From Leekyejoonella antrihumi (GTDB taxonomy: Bacteria > Actinomycetota > Actinomycetes > Actinomycetales > Dermatophilaceae), in NCBI RefSeq assembly GCF_007845645.1, contig NZ_VCQV01000005.1, positions 1 to 64,000 on the forward strand: a stretch of 64,000 nt of DNA. The letters are read 5' to 3'. Each line of letters starts with the position of its first letter. Positions within the stretch are counted from its first letter, which is position 1. Below the pieces are notes generated by a model that made no database searches, was not told the origin of the DNA, and saw only the letters and a list, made by a program, of their open reading frames with translations. This document shows positions 32,483 to 35,874 of the stretch, in pieces. The position numbers were made by a program, and so were the translations under genes.

Positions 32483-33955
32483 TCACACGAGGTAGGCAGT
32501 GAGGTCGCCCCGCAGGATGCGGGTCACCTTCGCGTGCATATGAGTGCCGTCCGGAGTGTGGTCGCTGCTGATGACGTCGCCCTCGTGGTGAATGCGGCTC
32601 AGCAGGTCGCCTCGGTCATAGGGCAGCAGTACCTCCACGCGCAGGTCGGGATGCGGCAGCTCACGGTCAATCAGGTCCCGCAGGTCATCGAACCCGGCGC
32701 CGGTGCGCGCCGACACGACCACCGAGTGCTTCTCGGCACGCTGCAGTCGAGCGATGACGTCCGGCGGCGCAAGGTCTGCCTTGTTGATCACGATGACCTC
32801 TTTGATGTCGGTCGCACCGACGTCGGCGAGCACGCCCCGCACCGCGGTGATCTGCGACTCGGGGTCCGGGTGCGAGCCGTCCACGACGTGCAGCACCAGA
32901 TCGGCGTCGGCAACCTCCTCCAGGGTGGAGCGGAATGCCTCGACCAGCTGGTGGGGCAGGTCTCGCACGAAACCAACGGTGTCGGCCAGGGTGTACAGAT
33001 GGCCGTCCGAGGTCTCTGCGCGCCGGACCGTCGGGTCCAGCGTGGCGAACAGCTGGTTCTGCACCAGCGCTCCGGCGTCGGTGAGCCGGTTCAGAATCGA
33101 GGACTTGCCGGCGTTGGTGTAGCCGGCGATGGCCACCGACGGCACGTGGTTCACCTGACGTGAGTGCCGCTTGGTGTCGCGCATGGTCTTCATGCCGCCC
33201 AGCTCGCGCTTGAGCTTGGACATGCGGGTGTTGATGCGCCGGCGATCCAGCTCGATCTTGGTCTCACCAGGGCCGCGGGAGCCCATGCCCTGACCCGTCG
33301 CGCCTGCCTGGCCACCGGCCTGCCGGGACATCGAGGCGCCCCAGCCGCGCAGCCGCGGGAGGAGGTATTGCAGCTGGGCGAGCTCGACCTGGGCCTTGCC
33401 CTCCTTGGATTTGGCGTGCTGGGCGAAGATGTCCAGGATCAACGCGGTGCGGTCGATGACCTTGACCTTGACGACGTCCTCCAGGCCACGCCGCTGGCTC
33501 GGAGCCAGCTCACCGTCGGCGATGACCGTGTCGGCGCCCTCCGCGATGACCAGGTCGCGCAGCTCGACCGCCTTACCGGAGCCCATCCAGGTGCCGGGAT
33601 CCGGACGCATCCGCCGCTGCAGCACCCCGGCCAGCACGGTCGAACCCGCGGTCTCGGCGAGCGCGGACAGCTCGCGCAGGGAGTTCTCCGCGTCCTCGAT
33701 GGTGCCCTCACCCCATACCCCCGCGAGGACCACCCGCTCCAGCCGCAACTGGCGGTACTCGACCTCGGTGACGTCCTGCAGCTCGGTGGACAGGCCCTCG
33801 ACCCGGCGCAGCGCCGCGCGCGCCTCGCGGTCGAACTGCTCACCGTCCGGCGACCCGTCGATCAAGAAGCCCGACTCGTCGTATCGCGTGTCCAGGTCTT
33901 CCCGGTCGGCCAGCGCCTCTGCGTGCCCCTCGAGAAAGTCGTTGTGTGCGGTCAT
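32483..33955 (-). CDS. hflX: Ribosome-associated GTPase HflX
   Basis: 490 aa. The N-terminal HflX domain includes RPDPGTWMGSGKA and GELAPSQRRGLED; a glycine-rich linker (GQAGATGQGMGSRGPGETKIE) leads to the GTPase domain with Walker A GYTNAGKSS, switch LDPTVR, DTVGF and NKAD. HflX splits stalled ribosomes under stress. The start was set at the ATG with AAGGGAG upstream; the frame runs 246 nt further back into the repeat region without family similarity. Its upstream region contains two of the repeat hairpins described below. Confidence 0.95.
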   Translation of the reverse strand: MTAHNDFLEGHAEALADREDLDTRYDESGFLIDGSPDGEQFDREARAALRRVEGLSTELQDVTEVEYRQLRLERVVLAGVWGEGTIEDAENSLRELSALAETAGSTVLAGVLQRRMRPDPGTWMGSGKAVELRDLVIAEGADTVIADGELAPSQRRGLEDVVKVKVIDRTALILDIFAQHAKSKEGKAQVELAQLQYLLPRLRGWGASMSRQAGGQAGATGQGMGSRGPGETKIELDRRRINTRMSKLKRELGGMKTMRDTKRHSRQVNHVPSVAIAGYTNAGKSSILNRLTDAGALVQNQLFATLDPTVRRAETSDGHLYTLADTVGFVRDLPHQLVEAFRSTLEEVADADLVLHVVDGSHPDPESQITAVRGVLADVGATDIKEVIVINKADLAPPDVIARLQRAEKHSVVVSARTGAGFDDLRDLIDRELPHPDLRVEVLLPYDRGDLLSRIHHEGDVISSDHTPDGTHMHAKVTRILRGDLTAYLV

Positions 33956-34050
33956 GTTCTCCCTTGCGTCACTGACATGCTTGCAAACATCAACGCCGCG
34001 CGCGACCGCTTTATGCCAGTCTCCGAGCCGTCCGGCCGCGCCCAACAGCC

Positions 34051-34125
34051 GCATATCCGTGCCCACGCACGCCAAATGCTGCCGGACCGGCCTCACCACC
34101 GCGCATATCCGTGCCCACGCACGCC
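34051..34125. repeat. 75-bp repeat, left copy (two hairpin units)
   Basis: Holds two units starting GCATATCCGTGCCCACGCAC at 34051 and 34103. Each 29-nt unit can fold: CGTGC/GCACG inner stem with a CCAC loop, and GCA(T)/(A)TGC outer stem. The 75 bp differ from the right copy at one position. Confidence 0.85.
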
Positions 34126-34211
34126 ATTTGCCGTGCCAGGACGTCCGCCGACTGCACATTCGCCTGTGGAAAACTCCAAACGGTGCCCTTGCGGCTGGCA
34201 CGGTCGTGGAT

Positions 34212-35138
34212 ATGGCGCCTGCACACCTGGATCCGAGTCGTCCGTTCCGCTATCGGACCGCCCTGGCAGCCGGTGTCTCACGATCCGTGCTGGAGTCACC
34301 CGCCTACACCCGACTGTGGCAGGACTGCTACGTCAGCGCACTTGTGCCGATCACGCCTCAGCTGCTGATCCAGGGCGCCCTGCTGGTCGTTCCTGGTGCG
34401 TGGTGCGTCAGCCATCACAGCGCTGCCCGCATGCTCGGCGGCGTCGTGCCTGACACTGCCGTCGTCCACCTCGGTGGTGACCGTGCGCTGCGCACAGGTC
34501 GCGCCGACATCAGGCTGCATCGTTATCGTCGGCGGCCTTCGACGACCTGGGCACGTGGTATCCGGGTGACTGATCGGGTGCAGACCTTTCTCGACCTGGC
34601 GGCGGTGCTCGATCTCGTCGACCTCGTGGTGCTCGCTGACTCCTTTGCCAGGTCCGACGAGCAGTTCCTGGCTGAACTGGTCGAGGCAGCTGGAAGCTAC
34701 TCCGGCAAGGGCGCCCACCTCGCACGTCGAGCAGCCGGTCTGGCTCGGGCACGCGTCGACTCACCGAATGAGTCGAGGCTGCGGCTGCTGATGGTGCTCG
34801 CCGGGCTTCCTGAACCGGTGGTCAACCTCGAGCTCCATGACAAATGTGGCCGGGTGCGGTACCGCATCGATCTGTCGTATCCCGATGCCCGCCTCGCGAT
34901 CGAGTACGACGGGCGGCACCACATCGACCGTCGGCGGCAGTGGACCGCGGACCTGGCCCGACGGGAGGACATCGAGGGCGAGGACTGGCGGTTCATCGTC
35001 GTCATCGCCACCGATCTCTTCGCCACGCCGGATCGGACTCTGCACCGCATCACCACCGCCATGCGCGAGCGCGGGATGCCGGTCCCCTGTCTGGACACCA
35101 CGTGGTGCCGCTACTTTCCCGGGCGCACCGGTCCTTGA
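34212..35138 (+). CDS. DUF559 (Vsr-like endonuclease fold) protein bracketed by repeats
   Basis: 308 aa. The N-terminal ~190 residues resemble the AbiEi-type regulatory region that often precedes DUF559. The C-terminal ~110 residues show the DUF559 pattern: NESRLRLLM, a beta-strand pair, LAIEYDGRHHID, RQWTADLARREDIEGEDWRFIVV. The conserved E-x-D and R-R-E residues of the Vsr/restriction-endonuclease-like core are present, so DNA cleavage is plausible but unproven. Start at ATG 34212; an in-frame GTG two codons earlier is the alternative. It lies between hflX and a methyltransferase gene and is flanked on both sides by near-identical 75-bp repeats. Confidence 0.8.
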   Translation: MAPAHLDPSRPFRYRTALAAGVSRSVLESPAYTRLWQDCYVSALVPITPQLLIQGALLVVPGAWCVSHHSAARMLGGVVPDTAVVHLGGDRALRTGRADIRLHRYRRRPSTTWARGIRVTDRVQTFLDLAAVLDLVDLVVLADSFARSDEQFLAELVEAAGSYSGKGAHLARRAAGLARARVDSPNESRLRLLMVLAGLPEPVVNLELHDKCGRVRYRIDLSYPDARLAIEYDGRHHIDRRRQWTADLARREDIEGEDWRFIVVIATDLFATPDRTLHRITTAMRERGMPVPCLDTTWCRYFPGRTGP

Positions 35139-35141
35139 GGC

Positions 35142-35216
35142 GCATATCCGTGCCCACGCACGCCAAATGCTGCCGGACCGGGCTCACCACCGCGCATATC
35201 CGTGCCCACGCACGCC
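35142..35216. repeat. 75-bp repeat, right copy (two hairpin units)
   Basis: Same as the left copy except one C/G difference in the spacer; units start at 35142 and 35194. The last unit ends in TATGC (35218-35222) so its outer stem GCATA/TATGC is complete. It begins 3 bp after the DUF559 stop and ends ~40 bp before the next gene. Confidence 0.85.
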
Positions 35217-35262
35217 GTATGCCGCACGCCGGGTCCCAGCCAGATCAGTAGGCTGTGTGGCG

Positions 35263-35874
35263 ATGTCCGACCACTACTTCACCGCGCAGCCGGCCAGCGA
35301 CGACGAGCGCCGGACGATGAATGTGCCGCTCGCCGGTGCGACGCGCGAGATCGTCACGGCGCCCGGGATCTTCTCCCCCGACCGCATCGACCAGGGCACC
35401 ACCGTGCTGCTGACTCATGCGCCGCCGCCGCCTTCCACGGGCACCTTCCTCGATCTCGGATGCGGCTGGGGACCAGTAGCGCTCACGCTCGCGCTCGCCG
35501 CGCCGGCAGCGACGGTGTGGGCGGTCGACGTCAACGAGCGTGCGCTCGACCTCACGCGGACCAACGCGAGGTCGCTCGGCCTGTCGGGTGTCACCGCAAC
35601 GACGCCGGATGCTTTGCCCGCCGAGGTCCGGTTCGACCTCATCTGGTCCAACCCGCCGATCCGGGTGGGCAAGAAGGTGCTGCACGACCTGATGCGCACC
35701 TGGCTGCCGCGGATGTCCGAGCACGGCACGGCCTACCTGGTGGTGCAGCGGAACCTCGGTTCGGACTCCCTGCAGCGCTGGCTGAACGACGAGCTGTCCG
35801 GCGACGGGCTCGTGACCACGCGATATACGAGCATCCGGGGATTCCGGATCCTGCAGGTCACTCGGGAAGGGTGA
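35263..35874 (+). CDS. Class I SAM-dependent methyltransferase, RsmC-like
   Basis: 203 aa. Motif I is FLDLGCGWGPVALTLA, the acidic motif II WAVDVNERALDLTRTNA, and the catalytic NPPxxxG-type motif appears as SNPPIRVGKK; together these fit the small-subunit rRNA guanine-N2 methyltransferase (RsmC/RlmG) group. The start MSDHYFTAQPASDDE is the usual N-terminus of that group. No Shine-Dalgarno is visible. It converges with dapF and overlaps it by 17 bp. Confidence 0.88.
   Translation: MSDHYFTAQPASDDERRTMNVPLAGATREIVTAPGIFSPDRIDQGTTVLLTHAPPPPSTGTFLDLGCGWGPVALTLALAAPAATVWAVDVNERALDLTRTNARSLGLSGVTATTPDALPAEVRFDLIWSNPPIRVGKKVLHDLMRTWLPRMSEHGTAYLVVQRNLGSDSLQRWLNDELSGDGLVTTRYTSIRGFRILQVTREG

Follow-up and report, generated by a model that had tools for sequence, protein, structure and literature searches.

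An AbiEi–Vsr nuclease gene of Leekyejoonella antrihumi and its private, scattered repeats: a possible REP-like system with an enzyme other than a Y1 transposase

A gene of Leekyejoonella antrihumi that encodes an AbiEi-like domain joined to a Vsr-like nuclease lies between two nearly identical blocks of short repeats. As judged from comparison of sequences, the family to which it belongs combines bracketing by repeats, a regular repeat lattice, scatter of the repeats through the genome, and an AbiEi–Vsr fusion with retained catalytic residues. We favour, with a probability of roughly 0.55, the reading that gene and repeats form one REP-like system, run by an AbiEi-nuclease in place of a Y1 transposase.

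The repeat blocks and the gene between them

Coordinates refer to the window, which is the whole 64-kb stretch of DNA that was analysed. Its features at this locus are the following.

32483..33955, minus strand: hflX, left neighbour, context only
34047..34133, plus strand: upstream repeat block, 87 nt, two 29-nt units at a 52-bp period, 95% identical to the downstream block
34051..34079, plus strand: repeat unit A1
34103..34131, plus strand: repeat unit A2, 52 bp from A1
34163..34174, plus strand: CCTGTGGAAAAC, DnaA-box-like element preceding the gene family (motif counts in homologs)
34212..35138, plus strand: AbiEi-like/Vsr-like nuclease gene, 308 aa, protein P0001 (ORF, profile and structure matches)
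34212..34748, plus strand: N-terminal AbiEi antitoxin fold, residues 1–179, putative DNA-binding part (structure matches 6y8q_A and 1zel_A)
34761..35078, plus strand: Vsr/EDxHD-type nuclease domain, residues 184–289 (matches 3r3p_A and 1cw0_A; alignment of 56 homologs)
35138..35224, plus strand: downstream repeat block, 87 nt, 95% identity with the upstream block
35142..35170, plus strand: repeat unit B1
35194..35222, plus strand: repeat unit B2, 52 bp from B1
35263..35874, plus strand: class I methyltransferase, right neighbour, context only

An earlier note on this DNA had described two 75-bp copies with two units each and one difference between them, and this description holds: the copies at 34051–34125 and 35142–35216 have a single mismatch (C at 34091, G at 35182), and the starts of the two units in each copy are 52 bp apart. 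The similarity extends past 75 bp, to 87 nt at 95% identity (34047–34133 compared to 35138–35224). The 20-mer GCATATCCGTGCCCACGCAC occurs exactly 4 times in the window, compared to 0 expected from 100 shuffles, and an exact search of the genome found no match to it elsewhere. The units had also been described as hairpins. As single-stranded DNA they do fold in the manner described, into modest structures of −5.4 to −7.2 kcal/mol (z −2.1 to −3.1), but the inner CGTGC/GCACG stem is broken in most of the related units of the genome (19 units, 17 distinct), with 10 to 12 of the 17 distinct units unpaired at three of the five pairs. The hairpin was rejected as the recognised form, its inner stem being unsupported by pair counts on the 19 units. 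The outer GCAT...ATGC dyad is mostly retained across these units, and by this comparison the conserved features are the outer dyad and the 52-bp spacing rather than the hairpin. A GTAG (or CGTC) tag is absent from the 19 units, and the repeats had no match in Rfam.

Pfam matched the protein to MTES_1575 (E 4e-9) and weakly to DUF559 (E 0.02), PADLOC matched it to AbiEi (E 5e-5), and a search of the PDB by sequence profile returned no match. A confident structure model from 56 homologs (pLDDT 93.8, pTM 0.90), matched to solved structures, bore out the AbiEi-like N-terminus and Vsr-like nuclease of the earlier note. In this model, residues 1–179 match the whole fold of the Streptococcus AbiEi antitoxin (6y8q_A; Z 11.4 over 171 residues) and also match Rv2827c (1zel_A; Z 8.6), and residues 184–289 match the catalytic domain of I-Bth0305I (3r3p_A; Z 12.0, rmsd 2.4, 96 of 97 residues) and Vsr (1cw0_A; Z 9.4). 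E231, D233, G234, and E252 are invariant in the alignment of 56 homologs, and D220 and H237 are kept in over 90% of them; this conservation of catalytic residues suggests that the nuclease is probably active. Neither Pfam nor the structure model revealed a Y1 domain. The protein did not match a known anti-phage defence system, as only the AbiEi half and weak nuclease matches were found, with no partner gene; the neighbours are hflX and the methyltransferase, and no AbiEii/DUF1814 toxin gene lies beside the gene.

Of 150 genomes from the GTDB family of the host, 126 contain homologs of P0001. The motif TGTGGA[TCA] is present a short distance upstream of the start codon in 67 of 80 homologs, compared to 33 of 1841 control segments (1.8%), and this DnaA-box-like element may couple the gene to DnaA. 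The element, CCTGTGGAYRAC in the window (34163–34174) and in the homologs (L053–L132), is the reverse complement of a DnaA box.

Bracketing, spacing, and repeat specificity across the family

Bracketing was scored when the 350 nt on one side of the gene held a direct or inverted repeat of sequence in the 350 nt on the other side, at 78 loci (named or our own) with enough flanking sequence from many actinobacteria; flanks of different loci, paired with each other, served as controls. A repeat across the gene with a score of at least 15 was found at 72% of the 78 loci, compared to 1.1% of 379 mismatched flank pairs, and with a score of at least 20 at 50% of the loci, compared to 0.3% of mismatched pairs. 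Every taxon group sampled contained bracketed loci, which numbered 10/10 in Dermacoccaceae, 23/34 in Intrasporangiaceae and others, 10/15 in Ornithinimicrobiaceae, 9/15 in Nocardioidaceae, and 4/4 in propionibacteria and others, and 16 of 20 more distant homologs (30–42% identical) were bracketed as well. A clear bracket was absent by this test at about one quarter of loci. On these counts, genes of the family are usually bracketed by short, mostly dyad-like repeats.

The spacing was assayed by searching each flank for an internal repeat with a score of at least 14, with other segments of the same loci and shuffled flanks as controls. Internal repeats were present in 53% of flanks, and 59 of these 83 had a lag of 50–53 bp; the corresponding values were 2.6% and 2 of 27 for other segments of the same loci, and shuffled flanks gave an internal repeat in 0 of 780 cases. 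In the repeat arrays of Flexivirga endophytica, neighbouring units lie 51 or 52 bp apart in 39 of 43 cases on the same strand and in 5 of 7 cases on opposite strands. Loci with unrelated repeat sequences have in common a lattice of 51–53 bp, and its natural reading would be about five helical turns. In a distant subfamily, three members (L380, L381, and L383) show a 40-bp lag in place of 52.

Paralogs within one genome carry different repeats: units matched at 4–9 between loci, compared to 16–77 within a locus, with partly related repeats only for close pairs. Units from different loci show no relation when their proteins are less than 60% identical, and most are related once identity exceeds 70%. 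By this co-variation, each repeat family is specific to its enzyme. The L. antrihumi genome also contains a truncated, frameshifted paralog that is 64% identical (L043 1960–2706; G000:C74:60959–61705) and still bracketed, by GCATATCGACGCCGGCGATGCC units. One homolog, on a contig labelled Acidobacteria (L068), is nested within Ornithinimicrobium in the tree, probably as a result of a binning error.

Gene-free repeats and the hflX–methyltransferase locus

A search of the genome and its relatives, as the earlier note had proposed, found gene-free copies of the repeats in L. antrihumi and other repeat families in Flexivirga and in Humibacillus and Terrabacter. L. antrihumi has about ten gene-free repeat sites, with intergenic 29-nt units that differ from GCATATCNNNGCCNNCNNNNNCCNNNTGC by at most one mismatch. 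These sites include four pairs at exactly 52 bp (C74:48783, C13:73636, C63:122236, and C68:18936) and further single units, one of them between deoA and cdd. Among the gene-free families of this genome, those of the GACACCAG type are without an intact matching gene, and 18 queries found no gene relics beside the gene-free pairs. Other families, each present in tens of copies, occur in F. endophytica and F. caeni, and Humibacillus and Terrabacter have another scattered family. Scattered repeats occur as single units, pairs, or arrays, including arrays of ten units, and the majority of a family's copies are distant from the gene. The earlier note had held that repeats in places without a DUF559 gene would speak against its reading; such repeats exist, but the same families also bracket the gene, and for this reason we count the gene-free copies as part of the system.

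Two Flexivirga species (G026 and G145) have an 80-bp inverted-pair element in common at nine orthologous gene-free sites. Nine of the eleven gene-free sites of G026 are filled in G145, and all nine G145 element sites outside the gene locus are filled in G026 too, indicating that movement is rare. At one site, an ORF that is unbroken in G145 and begins with MSEQVTTEVSGDPRVADV has this start split by the element in G026, where a later ATG is in frame; the extra segment is ~130 bp, longer than the 80-bp element. The simplest reading of this two-species comparison without an outgroup is that the element inserted in G026 at the ORF start. Flexivirga element arms (L179–L198) come in two discrete versions, CAAAAGTCGACC and CRTTTCTCGACC, which are mixed within single elements. 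We also considered whether intergenic sites generally exchange one repeat family for another, and rejected this as a rule, as it was seen only before ruvC in Flexivirga and at no other of about ten sites. Across five Flexivirga species (L259–L263), the gap before ruvC is occupied in three lineages by three repeat families unrelated to one another, and in a fourth lineage it has none; this gap is possibly a preferred site.

Junctions of hflX and the methyltransferase with and without the gene, a comparison also proposed by the earlier note, were examined at 30 methyltransferase loci, with hflX scored as adjacent when the gap was under 450 bp. hflX adjoins the methyltransferase without such a gene in 17 genomes of 15 other genera, and the gene is present at this locus only in L. 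antrihumi, Allobranchiibius, and Flexivirga. Eight of the gene-free junctions, from genomes of other genera, were read for the L. antrihumi repeat, and all eight lacked it. The L. antrihumi gene and the Allobranchiibius orthologs at this locus form one clade (support 96/88), yet the repeats of the Allobranchiibius orthologs are unrelated to those of L. antrihumi. Most simply, the gene would be a lineage-specific gain that then stayed in place, and it looks stably inherited at this locus in a clade of two genera. The stable location in all relatives that the earlier note had named as contrary evidence is thus found inside this small clade only, as the 17 genomes of 15 other genera are without the gene. 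The note's suggestion that the gene is mobile, or is excised as a circle by recombination between the copies, found no support: locus and clade are shared, each flank has its own complete repeat set, and no locus was found from which the gene is gone and a single repeat set remains. The gene-free junction of Metallococcus carri (L216 1385–1510) contains tandem CTTTATGCCTCGGTGTGCGTCGCT.

Explanations and known systems

We place at about even odds the fuller proposal that the AbiEi–Vsr fusion is an independent actinobacterial counterpart of REP–RAYT, which would recognise, homogenise, and spread private repeats at a fixed geometry of about five turns; its recognition would have diverged so rapidly that repeats are unrelated even between orthologs of a single locus and between paralogs of a single genome. 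Co-variation and fold suggest that the AbiEi module would read the gene's own repeat. The protein, as a dimer or a pair, would act across two units ~52 bp apart, an arrangement suggested by the gene-specific paired repeats of AbiEi together with the long dimer target of I-Bth0305I; the latter enzyme binds as a dimer to nearly 60 bp of DNA (PMC3943268), a length compatible with a 52-bp site of two units. The nuclease domains would then nick or cut between or beside the two units, and repair of the break from other copies would keep the copies alike and occasionally copy an element into a new intergenic place. Through the upstream units, the protein would probably also repress its own promoter in the manner of AbiEi. 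Counting against one system of gene and repeats, a plain DNA-binding regulator would need the 52-bp lattice equally.

Pure autoregulation is the main rival. The repeats would then be only binding sites, with the AbiEi part repressing its own gene through the upstream units, the scattered units forming a regulon, and the nuclease not acting on them. Such operators would suit an N-terminal domain with the whole AbiEi fold, as AbiEi and Rv2827c each bind a pair of 23-bp inverted repeats in the promoter of their own gene and do not bind those of the other (PMC7319586); the upstream units, moreover, precede a conserved promoter-proximal element, and the 52-bp phase is suited to cooperative binding. 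Autoregulation leaves unexplained, however, the equal arrays downstream of the stop codon, the near-identical spacer between the units of both copies (75 bp with one mismatch), the private repeat sets of paralogs, which differ in every unit, the ten-unit arrays, the likely insertion into an ORF start, and the retention of catalytic residues in 56 homologs, and we consider it unlikely, if a serious contender. It is improbable that gene and flanking repeats form a mobile cassette, moved either by homing or by excision and insertion through recombination at the repeats. Direct repeats at both gene ends, a homing-type nuclease fold, and, in 17 genomes of 15 genera, an hflX–methyltransferase junction without the gene would all be expected of such a cassette, but L. 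antrihumi and Allobranchiibius have the same locus, a supported clade, and nevertheless unrelated repeats, the empty junctions of eight genomes are without the repeat, and an empty site with only one repeat set was not encountered. Copies in one genome also differ in their repeats and are therefore not simple duplicates of each other.

The distance of most family copies from the gene could mean that some other factor spreads the repeats as general intergenic elements, with the genes merely sitting in or near them. We regard this as very improbable, as at most loci tested a single family flanks the gene on either side, each paralog of a genome has a different family beside it, and control segments are without such repeats. 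That the units are RNA or terminator hairpins of neighbouring transcripts is barely credible: they do fold with moderate energy, but their inner stem is not conserved across units, they match nothing in Rfam, a terminator has no use for a 52-bp spacing, and repeats occur before start codons and not only after stop codons.

The earlier note's proposal of REP-like repeats tied to a nuclease other than a Y1 transposase is supported. The reading of gene and repeats as one system has its closest parallels in features of the REP/REPIN repeats of proteobacteria with RAYTs (TnpA_REP; REPtrons), which likewise are short, dyad-like, intergenic, genome-wide, and often paired or arrayed, also flank a stably inherited nuclease-like gene, and co-vary with its protein. 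RAYTs, however, are HUH Y1 transposases that act on single-stranded hairpins with a GTAG tag (PMC8266576), whereas here the enzyme is an AbiEi–Vsr fusion with no Y1/HUH transposase gene, a common tag is absent, the hairpin is not kept, and the units lie on a fixed ~52-bp lattice. The EDxHD homing endonuclease I-Bth0305I and Vsr have in common with our protein a nuclease fold with acidic catalytic residues, the long target contacted by a dimer being a feature of I-Bth0305I itself, but the DNA-binding part here is AbiEi-like, and homing enzymes have one target, interrupted by their own gene, in contrast to many repeats on both sides and elsewhere. The AbiEi antitoxin and Rv2827c resemble it in the whole two-domain AbiEi fold, in paired repeats before the gene, and in gene-specific recognition (here predicted); unlike them, it has no AbiEii/DUF1814 toxin neighbour, its nuclease is fused, and its repeats are also downstream and genome-wide. 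Type IIE/IIF-like restriction enzymes act on two sites, as the mechanism proposed here would require, but no modification gene is present here and the sites are in the host chromosome and different for each gene copy.

We found no earlier description of such a system in open-access papers, the scope of our search, with subscription papers and preprints outside it. As far as that literature shows, and in keeping with the novelty suggested by the earlier note, the proposed pairing of an AbiEi-nuclease with its own spreading repeats is, provisionally, undescribed. If the reading is true, populations of REP-like repeats evolved on at least two occasions, with unrelated enzymes. Hundreds of natural pairs of a DNA-reading domain and its own site would also become available, which might reveal a recognition code for AbiEi-type domains, and a very common and so far unexplained actinobacterial gene family would be explained.
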